Source: Pelagomonas calceolata | Lineage: Eukaryota > Sar > Pelagophyceae > Pelagomonadales > Pelagomonadaceae | Assembly: GCA_918797485.1 (NCBI GenBank) | Contig: CAKKNE010000002.1 | Coordinates: forward strand, 1,206,501-1,270,500 | Direction: 5' to 3' | DNA: 64,000 bases | Shown here: piece by piece, positions 15,770 to 59,800 of the stretch | Layout: each line of letters begins with the position of its first letter | How positions within the stretch are numbered: position 1 is the first letter of the stretch | The notes under the pieces: generated by a model | The model's input: the letters and a program-made list of their open reading frames with translations, nothing else | Told to the model about the DNA's origin: nothing | Databases searched by the model: none | Position numbers and translations under genes: made by a program

Positions 15770-16614
15770 ATGGCCAAGAAGAGAAAGAGTGAAACCCCTG
15801 CTGTCGCGAGCGGTGCGAGAATCCATGTTTCACGGCGCCTTACCGCGCGCGGATCGTCGCGCCGACCTCCACGCCATCGACGCGTCGTCTCCTCGGTGGG
15901 CTGGCGGTACTGGTCTTCACTGCTCGACGACAAGCCGAGGGCCGACGTCCAGTTCTACAAGTTCCTCCGTCTCGGCACGACGGGCTACCGCCGCGTCTGC
16001 GACAACATGATGGCTGTGGCCGCCCGCATCCGCAAGGGTCTGAAGGAGCTGAAGCGCGCGGACGGCACGCCCTACGTCCAGCTCCTCGACGCGGGCGACA
16101 CGAAGTGCCTCCCGGTGGTCGCCCCCTGAGTCCACGTGACCGTGTCTGCTCGATGGCGTGACGCTCTACTATCACGCAGGTCACGGCGCGCGTCAACCCG
16201 GCCCTGAACGCGCCCTACGACGACATCGACCTCCAGCACGCCATCGCCCAGGAGCACTGGTACGTCTGCGGCTACAAGATGAACATGAAGTGAGTGCGGC
16301 CGCGCGGATCACGGCGCCTTCGCGCTGGACCATCGTGTCCTCCCGGACGCCTCCACGCCGTCGCCGAGACGGCTTGATTCACCGGTCGCGTTCCACGCAG
16401 GCACCCGATCACCGAGGAGACGCACCACCTCTTCCACGACGCGGACCCGTCGACGCCCATGTTCCGCGTCGTCGTCAAGGCGAACCTGTCCATGCCCATG
16501 GCCGACAACCTCGTCGCGTCCATCAAGAAGTCCTTCGCGTTCCTCGACGCGCACGGCGCCGGCTTCAACAGCCACCCGCACCACGCGCACCAGCCGCACC
16601 ACAAGGCGTGCTAG
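15770..16614 (+). CDS. Truncated glutamate decarboxylase-like protein, four exons
   Basis: My exon model is 15770-15802, 15953-16117, 16180-16289 and 16401-16614: 173 residues, frame kept throughout. The product FYKFLRLGTTGYRRVCDNMM, CLPVVTARVNPALNAPYDDI and WYVCGYKM matches only the C-terminal third of type II PLP-dependent glutamate decarboxylase (the ..FIRLGxEGYRxVMxN.. and LPVVxF segments). The PLP-lysine domain, substrate-binding residues and about 300 N-terminal residues are absent. The first exon has 11 codons (MAKKRKSETPA) and is uncertain. As it stands it cannot be a decarboxylase. It could be a partial duplicate or a decaying copy, although all remaining introns still splice in frame. 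The His-rich tail (HPHHAHQPHHKAC) is unusual. Confidence 0.55.
15803..15952 (+). mobile_element. Introner-derived intron (GAD-like gene, intron 1)
   Basis: 150-bp proposed intron, donor GTCGCG, acceptor GTCCAG. It contains the introner core CCTCCACGCCATCGACGCG at about 15868. Ends are degenerate, and the upstream exon is inferred. Confidence 0.45.
16118..16179 (+). mobile_element. Short introner-derived intron (GAD-like gene, intron 2)
   Basis: 62-bp intron. Donor GTCGCCCC, acceptor ATCACGCAG, then GTCACGGC, a partial match to the donor octamer. Retains one core arm (GCTCGATGGCGTG, about 16148-16160). Phase 0; splicing gives LPV-VTARVN and removes an in-frame TGA. Confidence 0.65.
16290..16400 (+). 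mobile_element. Introner-derived intron (GAD-like gene, intron 3)
   Basis: 111-bp intron with donor GTGAGT and acceptor TTCCACGCAG. It contains a decayed core (GCCTCCACGCCGTCGCCGAG). Phase 2; the joined codon restores MNMKHPITEE. Confidence 0.7.
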
Positions 16615-38449: not shown

Positions 38450-40601
38450 TTATTGTCCCAGGTACACCAGCAGATCCCGGGGGATCCGGAACGGCGGCTC
38501 CGCGCGGCCCTTCTCGCGGCGCACGGCCTCCTCGCGCATCGCGCGCGCCTCGGCGAGCCGCTCCGCGCCGGTCCGGCGGCCGTCGACGAGCGTCGGCGCG
38601 ATGCGCGGGCTCCTGCAGCTATTGTCGGCGGCGAGGCGCTCGGCCGCGTTCGCCGCCGCGTCGGCCGCGGCCAGGCTCTCCGCCCGGAGCATCGCTTGCT
38701 CCGCCGCCTCGGCGCGGTCGCCGGCCTTGTTGGCGCGGTCGCGGACGCGCCGCGCCTTCTCCAACACAGCCTCGCGCGGGTCCGGCGTCGGCGGCGGCAG
38801 CGGGTCGACGCGCGTGTAGCCCTTGGCGACCATGTCCTCGTGGATCGCCTCGGCGAGCGTCGTCGGTGATTTCGGAGCCGGCACGGGCGCCGACGCGTCG
38901 TCGCGCATGTCCGGAGGGACCAAGAGTTCCAGCACTGGGTCGCCGGTGAGCACGCGCACGAAATCGTCGTCCTTGTAAATCTCGGCCTGGTTCTGGTTCT
39001 GTAATAGCAGCGACGCGACCGCTTGCAAGGCTTTGTCCTTGGTCTCGAAGTCGGGCGCGTGGTCGACGGCGGCCAAGAGAGCGTGGCGGGCGCCGCGGTG
39101 GACCCAGACGGCCCGCCGCAGGGGCGGCGGCTGCGACAGGAGGTAGAGGGTCTCTATGACCGCGTACCGCGTGCCGGCGTCGCGGCCCGCGAGCCCGCCC
39201 GCCGCCGCGAGGTCCAGCGCGTCGCCGAGGGCCTTTTGGTCCAGCACAACCGTCGCCCCCTTCATGAGCCCGGCAAAGTCGCCCAGCGGCGCCGCGGCGT
39301 CGGCGTCGGCTTTTGCCCGGGCCTGCCGCGCGAGCGTCGCGGCGAGCGGCCCGAGCTTGGCCAGGAGCGTCGCGTCAGGTAATAGAGTTAGGAGGCGCTC
39401 CTTCGCGCGATTCACGAGGGGCCCCGGCGCGAGGCGCTCGAAGGCCGTCGCGTACAAGAGCCGCCTCAGGGGCCGGTGGGCCCAGAACTGCCTCTTGTTC
39501 GCCTCGTAGCCGGCCAGGCGGATCAGGCAATCTAAGGCGAGCGCGCGCGCGCGTGTCTCGACGCCACACTGCGACGCTACGAGTAATGCCTCGCGGACGA
39601 TTTTGCGCGGCCAGAGGTTCGCCTCGCGAGACAAAGAGCTCAGGACCATGAGCGACCGTCGTAGAGCGGCAGTCTCGACGGACGCGCCCTCGGTGTTTGT
39701 GGACGCGTCCTGCTTGACGAGGAGGCATGCGCCATTATCCAAGGCCGCCTTGCGGGACGCGGCCGTCTCGGGCGCGCGCGCCTTTTCCGTCGCTGCTTTG
39801 TGCTTTTCCGCGTCGGCGGACCAGGGTGCCTCCCGCAGCTCGCAGCCGTACTCGTAGTTCGCCCGCGCGTGTTCGACGTAGGGGATGGTCCCGCCGCCGA
39901 TGTCTTTATAGTAGTGGCGCCGGTCCCTCTCGTTGAGTCTCGCGCGTGTCCCAGCCTGCGTGGAGATCAAACAGTGAGTTGGGTCACGGGCACGACGTCG
40001 CGTCGATGGCGTCGGGCGTCCGAAATTTGAGTTCCACACAGGTCCCCACCAGATCTATTTCCAGGCGCTCGACCTGCTCCTCCAACAACTCATTCCGCTC
40101 CCGTAGCGAATTCAGGGTCGACAGCAGCGCGTCGCGGTCGTGCTTCACTCGCATGGTCAATGCTTCGATCTGGCTTTGCTTGGATCTCATATTGCCCAGC
40201 AGCCGCCTTTCCAGCTCTTCAGAGACGTATTTGAAGTGGTCGCGCTCGTCCGCCATCGCCGTGACGGTGCGGTGCAACCCGGTAGCCGTCGCTTCGATCT
40301 TTTTCAGAGCCGCTTGCGCGGCGACGGGCTGGCCCTTCTGGAGGCCGCAGCGCGCGGCGTGCGCCGCGAAGTCGAGCTTTTTGAGAGCGGCTTTCGCGCG
40401 CGTCGGGTCCGTCTTCAGTACTTTTTGGGAGGCAGCGTCGAGCACGGGATTGACGCCGCAGCCCTCGATCAATGCGAGCAGTTCCTCGCGCTTGGCGTCG
40501 CGTCGCTTCGCTTCGGTCCACGCGTGCGCCGAGCCGGGCCGCTTGGTTGGGATCGGTGCGACGCGTCTTGCCGCTGGGGCGGACCGCGGCCTGCGCTCCA
40601 T
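38450..40601 (-). CDS. Coiled-coil / helical-repeat protein, two exons
   Basis: Minus strand, exons 40601-40050 and 39955-38450, 685 residues. Residues about 30-110 are helical and Lys/Ala-rich. A long coiled coil spans about 95-215 ([50 protein letters not shown]). Residues about 270-530 form an Ala/Leu-rich armadillo/HEAT-like helical array ([34 protein letters not shown]). The C-terminus is another charged helix ([20 protein letters not shown]). The layout resembles ciliary or centrosomal structural proteins, but I cannot name an ortholog. The splice joins EIDL to AGTRARL in phase and preserves the coiled-coil heptads, which supports the model. Confidence 0.75.
39956..40049 (-). mobile_element. 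Introner with near-intact ends (coiled-coil gene)
   Basis: 94 bp, phase 0. In gene sense: donor octamer GTGGGGAC, then CTGTGTGGAACTCAAATTT, core GACGCCATCGACGCGACG, ending TTTGATCTCCACGCAG, then GCTGGGAC. The two octamers match 6 of 8, consistent with an 8-bp target duplication whose left copy provides the GT. Confidence 0.85.
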
Positions 40602-46259: not shown

Positions 46260-47990
46260 ATGATGCGTGCACTGCTGCTCGTCGTCGTCGTGCACGGCAA
46301 GCGGGCGCCGCCGCTGGGTGGCCGCCACGGGGCGCGCCTCAGGACGTACGCGCAGCTCGGGCGGCGCCGCGTGCCGCCGCCGGGGAGCACGCCGGACCAC
46401 GTGAAGCGCGTCTACGACGAACTCGACCGCTCCGTGGCCTACTTCCCGCAGACGACGAACCGCAGCGATGCTGCAAATATTGTGAAAGAGATCCTCGCGC
46501 ACCCCTACGGCCTCGCGCTCCTGAACGGGCGTTTATTTGCCCATGAAGGGGTCGACCTGAAGACGATCCGGCAGTTCCGGTTGTTGTTGGAGGCTTCCGA
46601 GAGGCGGCGCGTCAGGAACGTCGTCGTCGCGCACAACTCGGCCTCGGATGGTAGGTGCGCCACCGTATGTAGGGACTGCGGCCACGGGAGCCACGAAAGA
46701 GATAGAGGAAGACGCCACTTACCTTCCACGCTGATAGCCAAGAAGGGCGGTTTCAAGGAAAGGTGCGGCGTTTTGGTGCCGAATCCCTACTTTGGGACCT
46801 ACAGAGAGCGCACGAACTCGACAAATTATGTCGTGAGGACGCCGTGGGTCCGGCGGCAGAACCAGGCCTTTTGGAGGGGAAGACTGATCGAGCCCGGCAA
46901 GGCGTGCATGAAGGAGAAGTGCGTGCCCGACCCGAATTTATGTGAGGGCAACCTCGCGCGCTTCGAGGGTTTGAGCCTGACGTTGCGCCACCCGGAGTTG
47001 TTTGATGTCAAGGCGTTACATATCAGCCCGAGCTGTCGTGCGCTGCGTAGAAACCAATTGCAACGCGCTAAACGCCATCGACGCGATGTTGCTCACTAGT
47101 TTATTTGCGCACAGGGACCGACAAGGCGGCGCTGCGGAACCGCTCCTGTCTTCCTACGTCCTTCGCGACGAAGATCGCGAAGCGGCTGCACAAGGTCACC
47201 GAACCGAAGCACCGTTCTCACTTGTGTGGAAATCAAATTTCGGGCGTCCCACGCCATCGACGCGACGCCGTTCCCGTGGCCACAGTCGGCTCGATGGCGT
47301 GGAGGTTCACGATTCCTAACTCACTGGTTGATTTCCACACAGGTCCTCACAACTACTATGCGAGGTTCAAGATGAACCTCCACTTTCCCGGATCGACGAC
47401 CGGTTCGTACAGTCGGAACCTCAACCGCGCGGCGCGGTGTCCTCGCCTTCACGCCATCGCCGCGACTTCCAACCAACGGCTGTTCTCGCGCAGACCTCTG
47501 GTCGACCGACGCCGTCGTGCTCATCTGGAAGCACGCCGCCGTGGAGCACTACTACCGCGGCCTGGCGCACGGCGCGACTCATTTAGACGTCGACCTCGCC
47601 TCGGCCGCGGCGACGGCGCGGGAAGTTCTTAAGAACCAGCCCCTCGTGGCGAAGCTCAAGGCCGGCGCGCAGGCCGTTGTTCGCGACCTCATTTGCCCTG
47701 ATTGTCTGGAAAAGTTCCTGGCGGCCGCGCTCGCCAAGATCCGCGCGCGGCACGCGCAGAACTTAATTCTAGACGACGCGGGATCGCTGCGCGCCGCGCT
47801 CCGCGGCGCCAACTGCACCGGCCTCGTCGAGTACCGGCAAGCGCATCCAACCCAAGACGACACGCAGCTCGGTCTGCACAAGGCGATCGAGCGGCGGGTC
47901 AGAGTCGTGCCCCTCCCCGCTGCGAAGGTGGTCGGCGACGGCGAGGACCCCGCGTGCGCGGCGCTCGTCAATACTGTATTTAACAACTAA
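46260..47990 (+). CDS. CAP10/POGLUT-family glycosyltransferase, four exons
   Basis: Exons 46260-47034, 47115-47213, 47343-47438 and 47494-47990, 488 residues with frame kept. Signal peptide MMRALLLVVVVHG. The CAP10 domain is recognised by VPNPYFGTYRER, RTPWVRRQNQAFWRGRL (the conserved PW..K...FWRG motif), and after splicing by YARFKMNLHFPGSTTGSYSR, VVLIWKHAAVEHYYRGL and HLDVDLASAA, matching the C-terminal donor-binding part of protein O-glucosyl/xylosyltransferases. It probably acts in the ER or Golgi on secreted EGF-like proteins; one is encoded at 2106-4406, a tempting but unproven substrate. All three introns derive from introners, at three stages of decay. Confidence 0.8.
47035..47114 (+). 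mobile_element. Introner-derived intron (CAP10 gene, intron 1)
   Basis: 80 bp, phase 1, donor GTCGTGCG, then CTGCGTAGAAACCAATTG (decayed left terminus), core AACGCCATCGACGCGATG, acceptor TTTGCGCACAG. Confidence 0.75.
47214..47342 (+). mobile_element. Introner with near-intact ends (CAP10 gene, intron 2)
   Basis: 129 bp, phase 1. Donor octamer GTTCTCAC, element from TTGTGTGGAAATCAAATTT to GGTTGATTTCCACACAG, then octamer GTCCTCAC (7 of 8 match). Internal arms CCACGCCATCGACG and GGCTCGATGGCGTGG can pair. Splicing restores KHR-PHNYYARF. Confidence 0.92.
47439..47493 (+). mobile_element. Shortest introner-derived intron (CAP10 gene, intron 3)
   Basis: 55 bp, phase 1, donor GTCCTC, acceptor CTCGCGCAG. 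Only one core arm remains (TTCACGCCATCGCCGCGAC). Restores RAARYLWSTDAV. Confidence 0.65.
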
Positions 47991-49357: not shown

Positions 49358-50775
49358 CTAGAGGTGGACGCCGCGCGTCCCGTAGTCCTGCTCGAGGTTC
49401 TGGCACAGCTCGAGCCCGTCCTTCGACGTGTCGAGGTCGCCCTGGTCCAGACCCAGCGCGAGGAAGTCCTTCGTGTAGAACCCGTCCGCGGCGATGTCCT
49501 CGAGGACGTTGTGCTTCGCGCCCTCCCAGCCAAGAGTGGACATGACCTTGCGCACGCGCACGGCGAAGCCCTCGGCGTTCGGCCGGAAGGGGAACGAGGA
49601 TTTGGTGTCCGGCGGTAATGCCGTAACTAACGCCTCCTTGCCGAGCGCGTTCGCCGCGGCGATGCACACGTCGTCGTAGGAACACATCTTGTTCGTGCCG
49701 CAGTTGAAGATCTCGCCGCCCGCTTCACTTTCTTTGCCGACGACGGAACCGATCAACGAAGCCACATCTTCACAATGAGTGACAGAGACGGGCTGCTGCG
49801 CGTCGGCCGGGACCGGCATCGGCAGGTCCCGCGCGGCTCGGTTCAGGAACCAATCCAAATAATCGCGCTTGTTCGTGTAGGGGCCGTAGATGTACTGCGG
49901 CCGGAAGGCCGTCCACCTTCCGGGTAACTCCTTCTCGAGGGTCATCTCGACCTGTGTGGAAATCAAATTTTACGGCGCGTTCGTGCTGAAGCATCGCGCC
50001 GTCCTCCACGCCATCGATGCGACGCCTGCTCGATGGCGTAGCGATGCCGGTTCCTCGCCGCTCGACGGAGCCAGCACGGCCGCGTCATTGTGCACCCGAC
50101 GCACTGGTTGATTTCCACACCGTTCTCGACCTCGCGCTGGCCGGTCGGCGGGTCCTTGACCTTCTTCTCCTCCTTCAACATCCCCTTGGCGGCGTACATG
50201 CCCGCCGATGAGACGAAGCTGTAGAACGCATCAGACTTCTTCGCCGCGGAGATGATGGGCGCGGCGTCGCCCGGTTTCTTCGAGTTGTTGTCGAAGACGT
50301 GCGTGGCCTTGTCGCCGCAGGCGGCTTCTACGGCCGACGCGTCGGACGTGTCGACCCACTCCACATTCACGGACGACGGGAGCTCGCCGTACTTGCTGAA
50401 CGGCAAAGCTTCTTTTTTGGCGGCGCTGTCCTGCACGATGGTCACGGTCAGGTCCTTGTCAGCCAGGTTCTTGGCCAGATGAAAACCGATCTCGCCGTGG
50501 CCGCCGCCCTTGTTTTGTACCTGCGAGCGGGACACGCCGTCGAACCGACACATTGGGCACAGCGTCGGCCGAAGTTTGACGACATTGAGCCGACATCCGC
50601 GTACAGCGTCGACGGCAGCGAGGCAACAACTCGAAGACTTCCGACGCCGCAACCGCACGATGACCGCATGGCCGGCGGCGTTGAGGGCCGTGCTGGATCT
50701 AGCAGTGGGGGCCGGGGCGAAGCACTCCGCGCCTAATGCGAGAGCGAGGACGACGGCGGCGGCACGCATGATCAC
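49358..50775 (-). CDS. Plastid CSP41-like NAD-dependent epimerase family protein
   Basis: Three minus-strand exons, 50775-50659, 50520-50131 and 49951-49358, 366 residues. The N-terminus MIMRAAAVVLALALGAECFA followed by PAPTARSSTALNA is a bipartite presequence for a complex plastid, with cleavage expected before the Phe. The body is an atypical short-chain dehydrogenase of the chloroplast stem-loop RNA-binding (CSP41) type: GHAVI joined to VQNKGGGHGEIGFHLAK (nucleotide loop), HVFDNNSK, FVSSAGMYA, RPQYIYGPYTNKRDYLDWF and VTHCEDVASLIGSV. The catalytic Tyr-x3-Lys is changed, as in CSP41. In plants this protein stabilises plastid transcripts and rRNA. Both introns are introners; removing them from the GT of the target duplication restores TGQREVEMTLEKE. 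Confidence 0.87.
49952..50130 (-). mobile_element. Intact introner, antisense orientation (CSP41-like gene, intron 2)
   Basis: 179 bp. In gene sense: octamer GTCGAGAA, element CGGTGTGGAAATCAACC to AAATTTGATTTCCACACAG, octamer GTCGAGAT (7 of 8). Core arms at about 50006-50040. The element body aligns to the intron at 55645-55810 when read on the plus strand, so it lies here in the opposite orientation to transcription. Confidence 0.93.
50521..50658 (-). mobile_element. Decayed introner-derived intron (CSP41-like gene, intron 1)
   Basis: 138 bp, phase 0, donor GTGCGG, acceptor CCCGCTCGCAG. Core arms reduced to GTCGACGCTG and TTCGACGGCGTG. Membership of the family is less certain. Confidence 0.5.
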
Positions 50776-54269: not shown

Positions 54270-56274
54270 ATGGCGGTGCCGTTGCGGCGAAGCCGCTGTA
54301 GACGCAGCATCCTTGGCCGAGCCGTAGTCGCTGCGATTTTGCTCTCGGAAGCGGTGCAGTGTATTCAGTTCAAACGTAAGCGCGCGGGCGTGAGCCATCG
54401 TGCGGTGCGGCCAGCGGTGTCGACAGCTACGCCAGCGGCTCCATCAAAGGCCAAACCGTCGAATACGGCCGCGGTGACAGGAAAAAATAACATCCTACCG
54501 CTGTCGGCGCCGCAGAACAAAATCGACGCGGCCACGCTGACGGCCCTGGTCGCCGCGGACCCCGGAGACGAGCTGGACGAGCCTCTGCGCCTCGTTTCCG
54601 GCGCGATTCCGAAGGACCTGCGCGGCACGCTCTACGTGAACGGCCCGGCGCGGGTCATCGACGGCCGCGGCCGCGCGGCGCACCCGCTCGACGGCCACGG
54701 TTTTGTAAGGGCGTTTTCATTTGGCGCACGGACGGATGCGGCGAAGCTCGCGGCCGCCGCCTCCACCAACGCTAATGACGCGTCGACGTCCATTGGTGGC
54801 AGCACAGTGGCGGCAGACGGTCGCTCGGGCGTGACGGTCCGCGGGCGCTTCGTGCGGACGTGGGCGTACGAGATCGAGAACTTCTTCGACCGCAACCTGT
54901 TCCGGGGCTTCTTCTCGCTGCCCTTCGCGCCGTCGACGCCGCTGCGCCTCTTCAACGCGCTGTCGCTCTGGCGGAAGAACGTGGCCAACACGGCCGTCGT
55001 CGCCTGGGCGGGGCGGCTTCTCTGCCTCTGGGAGCAGGGCCCGCCGCACGCGCTGGATGTGGAGACGCTCGAGACGGCGGCCGGCTGGGACCACCTTAAT
55101 TATTTAGAGACGCCGGCGTGCGCCGTGTCGCGATTGCGGCCGCTGCTGGCGCACACCAAGGTCTGGGTCGAGAATGATGGAAGGGAGCGCCTCGTCGGCC
55201 TGTCGGTCGTGGGCTCACATTTTACATTTTACGAGTTCGACGAACGCGGCGATCGCGTCGCGACCGTCGCCACGGAGCTGCCGTTCGCGAACCCGCTCAC
55301 CCACGACTTCAGCCTCACGGAGCACTATTACATTGTCGCGGAGAACCCGGTGCGGTACGAACCGGACGTCGCCGGGGCGCTGGACGGGTCGCAGCCCGCG
55401 CTAGGGCCATCCTTTGTCGCTTCCGCCGACGACCGGCCTGGCCTGCTCGCGCTCGTGCCCCGCGACGGGTCCGAGCCGATCGTCCTCGACGCCGGCGACG
55501 CGTCGATCGTCTTCCACTACGCGAACGCGTGGGAGGAAGGATCGCGTATCAAAATCGCGGCGTGCGCGTTCGACCGTTATGAATTGGGCGCCGAGTACGG
55601 CTTCGACGCGGCGGGCGGCCGTTTCGATCCGAACTTGCTACTCCGTGACGATCTGTGTGGAAATCAAAATTTCACGTCGCGTCCTGCTGAATCGGCGGGT
55701 CGACCTCCACGCCATCGACGCTGCGCCTGCTCGATGGCGTGGCGATGCCGGTTCCTCACCACTCGACAGAGCCAGCACGGCAACCCGACACACTCTTGGT
55801 TTCCACACAGGCCACGACAACGCCTGGGGCCCGTTCCTCCGCGTGTCAACAATTAATCTCGCGGCGGCAACGGTGTCGCACACTACGGTGGAACACGTTC
55901 ATCGGGACTTTCCCCGAGTCCATCCGCGAAGGGAGGGCCGGCCGACGAAGTACGCTTATGTCGCGGCGTCGCCCCATCTCCAGGAAGGCGAGCCGTTCTT
56001 CCCCTTCCAGTGCATTCAGAAGGTGGCGCTGGACGGCTCCGACGAAGTCATCACGTGGAGGCCCGCGCGCCCGGGCTGCTTCGTCGGCGAGCCGGTCGTG
56101 GCGCCGCGTCCCGGCGAAGTCAACGAGGACCACGCGTGGCTGCTGATAGTCGTCCACGACGTCCACGCCGCGGCGACGGACCTCGTGGTCCTCGACGCAC
56201 GGACGCTCGCCGTCGCCGCAGAGCTGCGCGTCGACCGGCTCCTGCCGCTCGGCCTCCACGGCACGTGGGCCTGA
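54270..56274 (+). CDS. Carotenoid cleavage oxygenase (RPE65/CCD family)
   Basis: Two exons, 54270-55644 and 55811-56274, 612 residues. The ATG at 54270 begins an N-terminal signal/anchor (SILGRAVVAAILLSEAVQC) consistent with plastid or endomembrane targeting. The seven-bladed propeller shows the family landmarks: GTLYVNGPARV and HPLDGHGFVRAFSF near the N-terminus, and the four iron-ligand His contexts LAHTKV, THDFSLTEHYYI, FHYANAWEE and C-terminal LHGTWA. The substrate would be a carotenoid or apocarotenoid; the cleavage position cannot be read from sequence. Splicing out the introner from the GT of its target duplication gives LLLRHDNAWGPF in frame. The protein ends two residues after the HGTW, as usual. 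Confidence 0.9.
55645..55810 (+). mobile_element. Intact introner, sense orientation (carotenoid oxygenase gene)
   Basis: 166 bp, phase 1. Octamer GTGACGAT, element CTGTGTGGAAATCAAAATTT to TTGGTTTCCACACAG, octamer GCCACGAC (5 of 8; the three differences are consistent with decay). Core arms CCTCCACGCCATCGACG and GCTCGATGGCGTGG at about 55702-55742. Body clearly homologous to 49952-50130 on the plus strand. Confidence 0.92.
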
Positions 56275-56804: not shown

Positions 56805-59800
56805 ATGCTACGGCGCGCCGCCTGGCTGACGAGCCGCCGCGCGGCCGCCGCGCTCCGCACGCACAAGCCAAGCACTACTCATGTGACCGCCGACGGCATC
56901 GACGGCGCGTCCGTCGGCATCTCGTTACCGGAGGAGACGATCGTGCCCGAGGCCGGCGCCTTCCGCCCGATGACCTACCTCAACGCGTCCACGGTCGTCG
57001 AGGTCAACCCGGCCACCGCCTTCGGCTCCTCTAGCCTTGCGGTCAAGCCAATTTTGGTGGAGCCGCCCAAAACCTTAATTCGCCCACCGTCCATCGGCAC
57101 GAACCTCGTCGGCGGCTCAAGACTCCTGGACTTTGTCAGCGCTTCGTCGACGGCGTCCATCGAGTCCATCCCTAGCCAGTCGCCCATCAAGGCATCGCTC
57201 GACGTCGTGCCCATCAAGACATCGCTCGACGTCGTGCCCATCAAGACGCCCCTCGACGTCGTGGCGACGCTCGAGCTCCCCAAGGCCGACGAAGCAGACC
57301 TCGTCGGCATCTCAAGCCTCCTGAACATCAGCAGCACTTCGCCGACGGCGTCCATCCCCAGCCAGTCACCCATCAAGACGTCGCTCGACGTCGTGACGAC
57401 GCTCGAGCACTCCTACGATGACCAGTCCTCGTCCTGGCGCCCGCCGTCGAAGGCGTTGGCAGTTCTGGTGGCTCTCGGTGTTGTTGGCACTTTGGGCGAG
57501 ATTCAGCCCGACGCCGACTGCGCACGGCTTAAGCAGGGCTTGCGTGGCCCTTCTACCGAGTGTGACTGCCTCAACTTCGCCCAATTTCCCGACGGCGTCG
57601 GCGTCGACGCCTATCCGGACTGGGTGCAGCCGTGTGGTGCTAGGGTTAACGGGAAAAAGGCTCCTGGTAGTGCTGGGCCAGGTGCAGTTGGAGAATCGCG
57701 CCACGGCGTGGCGAAAAACTGCCCCAACTTTCTAGCGCACGAGGAGCTGTTTCTAGGACAGCCCGTCTTTGGCGGCGTCCATAAGGGCACGTCAAGCAAG
57801 TCGTGCGGCGTGCTCGGCAAGCCTACCGATTGTGACTGCATCAACTTCGTGCAACTGCCCGAAGGCGTCGGCCTCGACGCCTATCCGGACTGGAAGCAAC
57901 CGTGTCGTGCTAGAGTGCAGGGGAAAAAGCCTCCTAAAGGCGCTCCCCCTGGGACGATTGGAGAATCACCGCACGGCGTGGCGACGACCTGCTCCAACTA
58001 TTTAGCGTACAAGGATCTGTTCCCACGGGAGAAAGTTTTTGCCGGCGTCTGTAAGAGCACCCACTCGGGCCCGTCGGGCAAGCAAGCCAAGACGCCGCTG
58101 CCACTATCCCAGGAGATCATGAACGGCGTGGACGCGGGCCTCCCTCGCATCAAGACGCTGTTCAACGTCCTCGAGCGCTACCGGCCCATCCTCTCGACGA
58201 TCATCCCGGCCGTCGACGAGAGCCCTAATGTCCGCTCCGCGCGCGAGGCCTGGATCAAGCTGCTGCAGGGCGCGAAGAGTTGCGAGGGCTCGACGCCGAT
58301 AGAGTACAAGATGTTCGACATCGAGAAAATGCAGAAGACGCCGTGGGGGCAGGCGTTGCGCGAGGCTGCGCCCAACTCAACTTTCACGACGCTTGCGTTC
58401 TTTATTTATTTTAACACAGGCGCGACGAGGGCAAGGAGGGCGAGGCCGTCGCGCGCGAGGCGGTCCAGCTCGGCATCGTCACGGCGACGTTGAAACGGGG
58501 CCTGGCCTTCGGCGACCTCAAGGTGGTGCTGGATGATGCGGAGACGAGAGGCCTCGGCGAAGACCGTGTCCGCAACGACCTGACGAGGACGCTGGGCCAC
58601 GGCGACAAGCTGTGCGTCTACGGCCTTTACCCGGAGCGTGATTTGTTGGAGTACTGCAAGTGCCTCGACGGCGTGGACTACATCAACGTCCACGGGGCCG
58701 TGTGTCACGCGATGGGCATGGACCCGCATGGCTATCACCGGAGGCCCGGCTTCGTGGCGCCCTGCCCGATCGCAAGCAGCGGGGAAATGATGGAGCAGCT
58801 GCGGAACGGCGTGTACGCTGAGGTCGTAAAGGACTGGAACGTCACGAGCTACCCGCACGTGGCGGCGCGCTCGCGCCTCGTGGACAAAAAAAAGGGCAAG
58901 GTCGACGACCCGTCGTTCATGGCGTTGCTGGCGGCGGATTTCGCCAATGCCGGTTTGGACGGGTTGCGGGCGGCCTGGACGGGGACCGACGCGTTCCTGG
59001 AGGGCAAGGTCGTGACGCTGCCGCCGCGGCCCACGGATCTCAAGAGCTGGTACGTGGACAACCCCTCGTACGACGTGCCTCGGGAGCAGCGCCCCGACTA
59101 CCAGGAACCGAAGAAGCCCTCCAAGAAGAAGGAGGTGAAGACGGCGGCCATCCCCGACGTCGCTTTCAACGAGTCGACCTTTGTCTTCGAGGGCTGCGAG
59201 CATTACATCCGCGACGTGGTCTCCGTGGACGGCGTGATCTGCGTGGACCACTATCAGAAGGCCCTCGACAAAGGGGACTTCATTACGTTGGTCCGGACGC
59301 CGTTGGAAGAGCTCATGTCCAACGGGACGACGTCGGCGCCGGCGCCTGGCGCCATGCAGGCGCCGCCGAACTTCGGGAAGGACATCCGCAGCTATTTCGC
59401 GCCCGCCGCCACCGCTTCGGCCGCAGCGCCGACGGCGGGCGAGGCGCTCCCTGCCGCTGGCACGGATTTTCCGAAGATCCCGTTCAACCCGCGGGACTTC
59501 GACCTCAAGCCCGGTGCAACGGTCCCGACCACGCAGCCCACGAAGAATATTAGATGGGCGTTGCGATTGACGGAGTTACAAATGGACGAGGATGGCGACG
59601 CCAAAAACATGTGGAGACCGAGACAGAGACAGTCCGCACTCCGGCAGGCCGCCGCGGCGACGGCGCGGCGCGTCGTCGCACCGGTCGTCGAACCGGCCTC
59701 GCCGCCCGGCTCGCCGCAGCACGAGTCGTCTTCGACGCCGACGCCGTTCCAGCCCGAGGTCACGGACCTCACCTACTCGCCGCCGCCGCCGCGGACGCCG

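Follow-up and report, generated by a model that had tools for sequence, protein, structure and literature searches.

How does a mobile element that lands in an exon come to behave as an intron? The question is raised by four introns in a 64,000-nucleotide stretch of the Pelagomonas calceolata genome (C2:1206501-1270500; hereafter the window), which an initial annotation read as introners: elements bounded by inverted repeats and flanked by octamers, the upstream one of which would provide the 5′ splice site. DNA-transposon introners are known from Aureococcus and Micromonas. From the sequence evidence presented here, the introners of P. calceolata are very probably copies of a 203-bp non-autonomous transposon with terminal inverted repeats, together with its deletion derivatives, that duplicate 8 bp of target on entering an exon and are spliced out.

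Anatomy and protein context of the window introns

All four introns share one layout, in which the upstream octamer and the element make up the intron and the second octamer copy belongs to the exon. The element ends are in every case close to the inverted repeats CTGTGTGGAAATCAA and TTGATTTCCACACAG. Intron 1 (39956-40049, minus strand) holds an 86-bp deletion derivative (39956-40041); its intronic octamer, GTGGGGAC on the minus strand (40042-40049), agrees with the exonic copy GCTGGGAC (39948-39955) at 6/8 positions. Intron 2 (47214-47342, plus strand) holds a 121-bp element (47222-47342) between GTTCTCAC (47214-47221, intronic) and GTCCTCAC (47343-47350, exonic), which match at 7/8. For intron 3 (49952-50130, minus strand; 171-bp element at 49952-50122), the intronic octamer is GTCGAGAA on the minus strand (50123-50130) and the exonic one GTCGAGAT (49944-49951), again 7/8. 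Intron 4 (55645-55810, plus strand; 158-bp element at 55653-55810) has the most divergent pair, 5/8, with GTGACGAT in the intron (55645-55652) and GCCACGAC in the exon (55811-55818). The repeats and coordinates are those of the initial annotation, and a recount of the octamers returned its four match values. Matches to the 15-mer repeat with at most three mismatches number 11 in the window against 0.62 expected, and none of 100 shuffles reached 11.

Removing the octamer and the element reopens the reading frame at 4/4 window introns, and the peptides that had been listed as restored by excision were recovered at all four, in an order that differs from that of their listed coordinates. In three hosts a single octamer copy then remains, and the resulting protein aligns with close relatives without a gap. 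We aligned listed relatives across 7-8 residues on each side of the junction (120 of 405 for intron 3, 120 of 168 for intron 2 and 64 of 64 for intron 4); these are database proteins, some of which may not be transcripts, and they may lack the insertion. Every relative with at least 75% identity was ungapped at the junction (22/22 for the three hosts together): 10/10 of those listed for intron 3 (QRE/VEM, within TGQREVEM), 8/8 of those listed for intron 2 (KH/RPHNYY, within EPKHRPHN) and 4/4 for intron 4 (LLLR/HDNAWGPF, within DPNLLLRHDN). Across all listed relatives covering the junction, the ungapped fractions were 50/116, 52/117 and 18/62 for introns 3, 2 and 4, respectively; the gapped ones amount to 66/116 for intron 3 and 44/62 for intron 4, and most gaps that we inspected lie in distant relatives.

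The host genes are of different kinds. That of intron 4 is of the carotenoid cleavage dioxygenase type (PF03055, E = 9.7e-53), and solved apocarotenoid oxygenases are gapped exactly at its junction and so are uninformative about it. The host of intron 3 is of the NAD-dependent epimerase type, with PF01370 found in its relatives. Some relatives of the intron 2 host contain PF05686 (CAP10-type glycosyltransferase), and the host itself has no Pfam match; a search of solved structures returned nothing for this host or for that of intron 3. For the intron 1 host we obtained a single sub-threshold Pfam match (CC149, 19.9 bits against a cut-off of 30).

Because introns frequently house MITEs, one could suppose that ordinary MITEs simply inserted within introns that already existed. 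We consider this extremely unlikely: the inferred intron is exactly the octamer plus the element (a 203-bp copy gives 211 bp), the downstream octamer is where the flanking frame picks up again, the octamer is itself a donor when read on the coding strand, and the examined sites bear no trace of an older intron. A different alternative has both splice sites inside the element, with the donor in the repeat (CTGT/GTGGAA), and would lengthen the mRNA by 12 nt (four from the element and eight from the duplication), that is, by four residues. The GT is present in the repeat, the frame would survive, and one introner family of an Aureococcus sp. offers a precedent (legend to Fig. 2F of Gozashti 2022, PMC9860276). 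Moreover, 37/117 listed relatives covering the intron 2 junction have four extra residues beside it. Those inspected from this group (which includes P0129-P0161) are about 47% identical to the intron 2 host and near-identical to one another, and they read YARY or FARY; FARY-type letters differ from the SHLC that the 12-nt-longer product predicts for the intron 2 gene. We take the four residues as a feature of another lineage, in which an old insertion is possible. In the 22/22 relatives of introns 2, 3 and 4 with at least 75% identity, which possibly are themselves insertion-free, the four extra residues are missing. This evidence, together with the strand test described below, makes a donor within the repeat very unlikely, and the preferred reading remains that the octamer would provide it.

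The gene that hosts intron 2 contains two further introns. Just upstream of intron 2 lies a probable older, degenerate introner (47035-47114, plus strand; element at 47043-47114), with three mismatches in each repeat end and octamers matching at 2/8. Its junction, ISPS/WTDK, is ungapped in 7/7 covering relatives with at least 75% identity. One protein from a jgi source (P0163, 96% over a third of the query) is plainly unspliced, because its sequence continues into this intron with one residue changed; a second source, perhaps of the same species, thus has the degenerate intron as well. The remaining intron of the gene (47427-47493, plus strand) is a GC-AG intron with no recognisable repeats, whose removal gives NLNHLWSTDA. 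Among the three readings that we tried, only this removal yields NLNHLW, a junction that is ungapped in 5/6 relatives with at least 75% identity; the sixth, P0127, reads into the intron, and another relative, P0124, loses frame there. GC donors may be common in P. calceolata.

Other traces of the family are scattered over the window. A lone right end with three mismatches lies at 58405 and, like the degenerate introner, is additional to the four introns of the initial annotation. The internal motif CACGCCATCGACGCGAC occurs 10 times forward and 4 times in reverse at up to two mismatches, elements counted in, and its occurrences outside recognisable repeat pairs (at 15870, 25017, 27498, 43309, 47450, 49313 and other positions) are perhaps remnants of older copies.

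Family size, target duplications and target preference

A search of the whole genome (32,445,274 bp in 8 contigs) with the two repeat ends, which the initial annotation had proposed along with a tabulation of the flanking octamers, returned 790 + 772 exact ends (1,562 in total) and 0 + 0 for the reversed pattern. Allowing up to two mismatches raised the counts to 1,653 + 1,597 against 14 + 8 for the reversed pattern, an excess that excludes chance genome-wide. At two ends per element, this suggests about 1,600 recognisable elements; ends that fall in duplicated contig ends (Guerin 2022, PMC9481584) are counted twice, and the 200-kb tile of contig C1 used below may sit in one of these. The published assembly comprises six nuclear contigs (32.4 Mb), a 90-kb plastid and a 39-kb mitochondrial contig, with 16,667 genes carrying 0.45 intron each (Guerin 2022, PMC9481584), so that roughly one annotated intron in five would be an introner. 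At full length the element measures 203 bp and gives an intron of 211 bp; shorter elements retain the ends.

We assembled a full-length set from the best 40 of 900 candidates (96-99% identical to the consensus), which is skewed toward young copies, and analysed 39 of them, leaving out L104 for want of a recognised repeat pair. The copies have inverted ends of 15 bp, near-perfect, and are flanked by direct duplications of 8 bp. Their octamers match at 8/8 positions in 31 copies, 7/8 in four, 6/8 in three and 1/8 in one, and mispaired octamers from the same 39 copies peak at 3/8 with none at 8. Including the window and tile elements, the duplication is perfect at 36/58 sites. The octamers are identical in 29/36 copies in which both repeats are exact and in 7/22 of the remainder; the decay of the duplication tracks that of the repeats, as age would predict.

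Some sites depart from the simple layout. Two of the 58 are flanked by inverted rather than direct octamers: L102 (7/8) and the tile site L013 (C1:6044209-6044345; 8/8). Another locus, L081 (C5:4673774-4674141), holds two elements, one full-length and one a deletion derivative, separated by about 60 bp, a pair that perhaps splits one gene twice. Unpaired ends at up to three mismatches, which lie outside the strand test, comprise four left and three right ends in the C1 tile and one right end in the window; two of the unpaired right ends of the tile match a left end with four mismatches, with octamers at 7/8 and 8/8.

The element sites lie in coding sequence more often than random positions do (49/58 confidently coding compared with 3,888/6,000; p = 0.0008). 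Read along the element, the left octamer of the 39 full-length copies has G at position 1 in 26, a pyrimidine at position 2 in 33, a purine at position 7 in 36 and C at position 8 in 25. The resulting consensus, GYNNNNRC, is palindromic and reads the same on both strands. Genome-wide, a GT-octamer (GTNNNNNN) precedes 645/1,562 exact ends and a GC-octamer (GCNNNNNN) precedes 342/1,562, together 63%, close to the 66% that the sample of the strand test predicts ((48 + 17)/98). With a transposase that favours GYNNNNRC-like targets, many sites would offer a usable donor, on one strand or on both.

A coding-strand test of the splice model

We reasoned that if the donor lies in the octamer, its first two bases must be a donor on the coding strand, and the other strand is free. 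The coding strand was called by a codon model, for which the window and the 200-kb C1 tile supplied 57 long training frames, retained from 62 by filtering; when trained on half of these frames, the model assigned the correct strand to 142/145 held-out 282-base pieces. The test covered 58 sites (39 full-length, 5 in the window and 14 in the tile), some of whose flanks overlap the training DNA, and 49 were called with confidence. On the coding strand of the confident sites the octamer starts with GT at 33, GC at 15 and GA at 1, that is, with GY at 48/49. On the other strand it starts with GT at 13 and GC at 4 (GY at 17/49), and the difference between the strands is highly significant (Fisher p = 4.9e-12). 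Background frequencies at coding positions of the gene strand are 4.6% for GT and 11.5% for GC. The nine low-confidence sites, which include intron 2 (score 6.2; plus strand favoured by 40), start with GT at six, GC at two and TC at one.

On the host strand, then, the upstream octamer starts with GY and the element ends with AG, the latter at 49/49 confident sites (ACACAG at 45/49), as the initial annotation had stated for its four introns. A donor within the repeat predicts no link between the GY of the octamer and the coding strand, contrary to the 48/49 and 17/49 found. The proposal that the octamer supplies the 5′ splice site is therefore strengthened, and the accompanying claim that it always starts with GT does not stand. 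About one third of co-opted donors seem to be GC (15 of the 48 confident GY sites), and the use of GC is supported by the full-length copies that have GC on one strand only and GT on neither, because GC lies on the model's best strand in 12/12 of them (one, L076, falls below the confidence cut). There are two exceptions to the rule: the confident site L098 has GA on its called coding strand and GT on the opposite one, and a low-confidence site reads TC whichever strand is taken.

Selection for splicing is not the sole source of the GY signal. The unused strand is also enriched (17/49 against a background of 18%; p = 0.005), so that part of the signal reflects target preference. Selection would then retain those insertions that place GY on the coding strand. 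Intron phases 0, 1 and 2 are represented by 24, 15 and 10 of the confident sites.

Orientation was balanced, with 22 elements in sense, 26 in antisense and 1 undecided among the confident sites; given that elements of both orientations all end in AG, either end can serve at the acceptor position. This bears on a further alternative, in which introns spread at the RNA level: a spliced intron reverse-splices into other transcripts and is then copied back, a mechanism put forward for fungal introners (discussed in Gozashti 2022, PMC9860276). Such a route would account for near-identical introns at many sites. It would yield sense copies only, in conflict with the 22 and 26 observed, and the perfect 8-bp duplications (31/39 full-length copies) and inverted repeats also count against it; we give it almost no credence. 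Under the transposon reading that we prefer, the splice sites actually used would be the GY of the octamer and the AG of the element end. The repeat end TTGATTTCCACACAG may combine a branch point, for which TTGAT is the candidate, with a pyrimidine tract and the AG, and its presence at both ends would permit splicing in either orientation.

Insertion may be followed by further change. At the 18 sites with octamers matching at 5-7 of 8 positions, position 3 differs most (9 times), and relative to GTRAGT the intronic octamer is closer than the exonic one at 6 sites, worse at 2 and equal at 10. This is no more than suggestive of donor maturation after insertion, in which the intronic octamer would drift, leaning slightly toward an improved donor. 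Introns 1 and 4 show GC-to-GT differences, which may have arisen once the element was in place.

We also asked whether the repeats might act in the pre-mRNA. The one intron that was folded, at 47214, has a strong predicted structure (z = -5.6; 0/200 shuffles as good). Among the repeat changes in 58 elements, 36 affect one side and 2 affect both; of these two, the first preserves Watson-Crick pairing and the second leaves a G-U pair. There is little sign of compensating changes, and the hairpin idea accordingly remains speculative. As an unlikely elaboration, pairing of the repeats would create a long stem containing the acceptor, with the donor fixed 8 nt outside it; any GY, GC included, would be accepted with no further donor consensus, and, given the palindromic target preference, an insertion into an exon would nearly always come ready to be spliced as an intron, whichever the strand.

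Strand concordance, together with protein continuity at 3/4 introns, supports the core of the initial annotation, namely that the intron is the product of a non-autonomous DNA transposon, with the donor provided by its 8-bp duplication and the AG by its end. That reading was right in substance; it is refined here in that the donor is GT or GC, part of the GY signal is target preference, and the acceptor is at both ends, which allows either orientation.

Candidate transposases and comparison with known systems

An 8-bp target duplication is characteristic of the hAT superfamily, and the duplication of the introner fits; a hAT transposase bearing introner repeats was not encountered. Profile searches of the genome for six families (hAT (PF05699), KDZ, MULE, DDE_Tnp_4, P-type RNase H (PF21787) and IS1595/Merlin), which ignore introns, returned one match only, to hAT. 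These intron-blind searches gave no Mutator-like, Harbinger-type or Merlin-type match in the genome; KDZ and P-type profiles likewise matched nothing in it, and nothing in control genomes either, which makes the outcome for these two families uninformative. The hAT match belongs to an apparently whole transposon (C4:4499549-4503199) with a frame of 721 codons (C4:4499880-4502042) that matches PF05699, inverted repeats starting CAGGGCAGCAG and CAGGGCAGCAGAAGGGCAAG, and the perfect 8-bp duplication TTGCTCGC on both sides. We rejected it as the autonomous partner, given that its repeats (CAGGGCAGCAG) differ from those of the introner; the surrounding 9.1 kb contains the introner repeat just once, with four mismatches and outside the hAT element.

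Longer elements with introner ends were sought directly. In the window and the C1 tile, no end pair 1-10 kb apart had octamers matching at 7/8 or 8/8; one pair spans 4.3 kb, with octamers at 6/8 and one end with four mismatches. Inspection by eye of 100 of the 1,562 exact ends gave a sole unpaired couple 0.3-10 kb apart (C1:549074, plus, and C1:552510, minus), which was discarded, its octamers not being common to both ends. Viruses were considered as carriers and dismissed: the 15-mer occurs once each in 43 viral stretches, with no inward-facing partner within 5 kb, and we read these occurrences as chance.

Introners have been mentioned in P. calceolata before, together with a peak of introns at about 210 bp (Guerin 2022, PMC9481584), and these are probably the very introns described here, at 211 bp. 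The passages of that paper that concern introners treat length alone, without the repeat, duplication or splice-site anatomy; it was the only publication found by a literature search on introners and Pelagomonas, from whose scope most subscription journals fell out. To this we add the family's size and copy number, the coding-strand analysis, the GC donors, the orientation-independence and the recognition of target preference as a separate cause. With many young copies and perfect duplications in a chromosome-scale alga genome, P. calceolata offers a clear case of intron birth, in which the coding-strand test disentangles two things that usually look alike, the target preference of the transposase and selection for splicing. 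The minimal donor sequence that a spliceosome needs, the pace of donor maturation and the transposase responsible become testable questions.

Similar anatomies are known from other lineages. Amoebophrya introners also have direct repeats at the exon-intron edges and inverted repeats able to pair in RNA, but with non-canonical splice sites and direct repeats of 3-5 nt, compared with GY-AG and 8 bp in P. calceolata (as described in Farhat 2021, PMC7789003). The introners of Symbiodinium microadriaticum, an unrelated host, have inverted repeats as here and a duplication of 4 bp rather than 8 bp (Gozashti 2022, PMC9860276). The same survey also covers introners with a 3′ site of their own whose 5′ site comes from the duplication, GC donors making up 0 to 50% depending on the family.

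A close likeness is to another pelagophyte. The introners of Aureococcus anophagefferens are, like those of P. calceolata, short non-autonomous transposons with inverted repeats and a target duplication. Huff, Zilberman and Roy (2016) reportedly found that they take one splice site from the duplication and carry the other. Their length is near 210 bp, as cited in Guerin 2022 (PMC9481584). The likeness drawn here is one of description; orientation-independence and the GY palindrome were measured in P. calceolata. The mechanism is already known from relatives, and P. calceolata appears to present it in a clean, two-way form.
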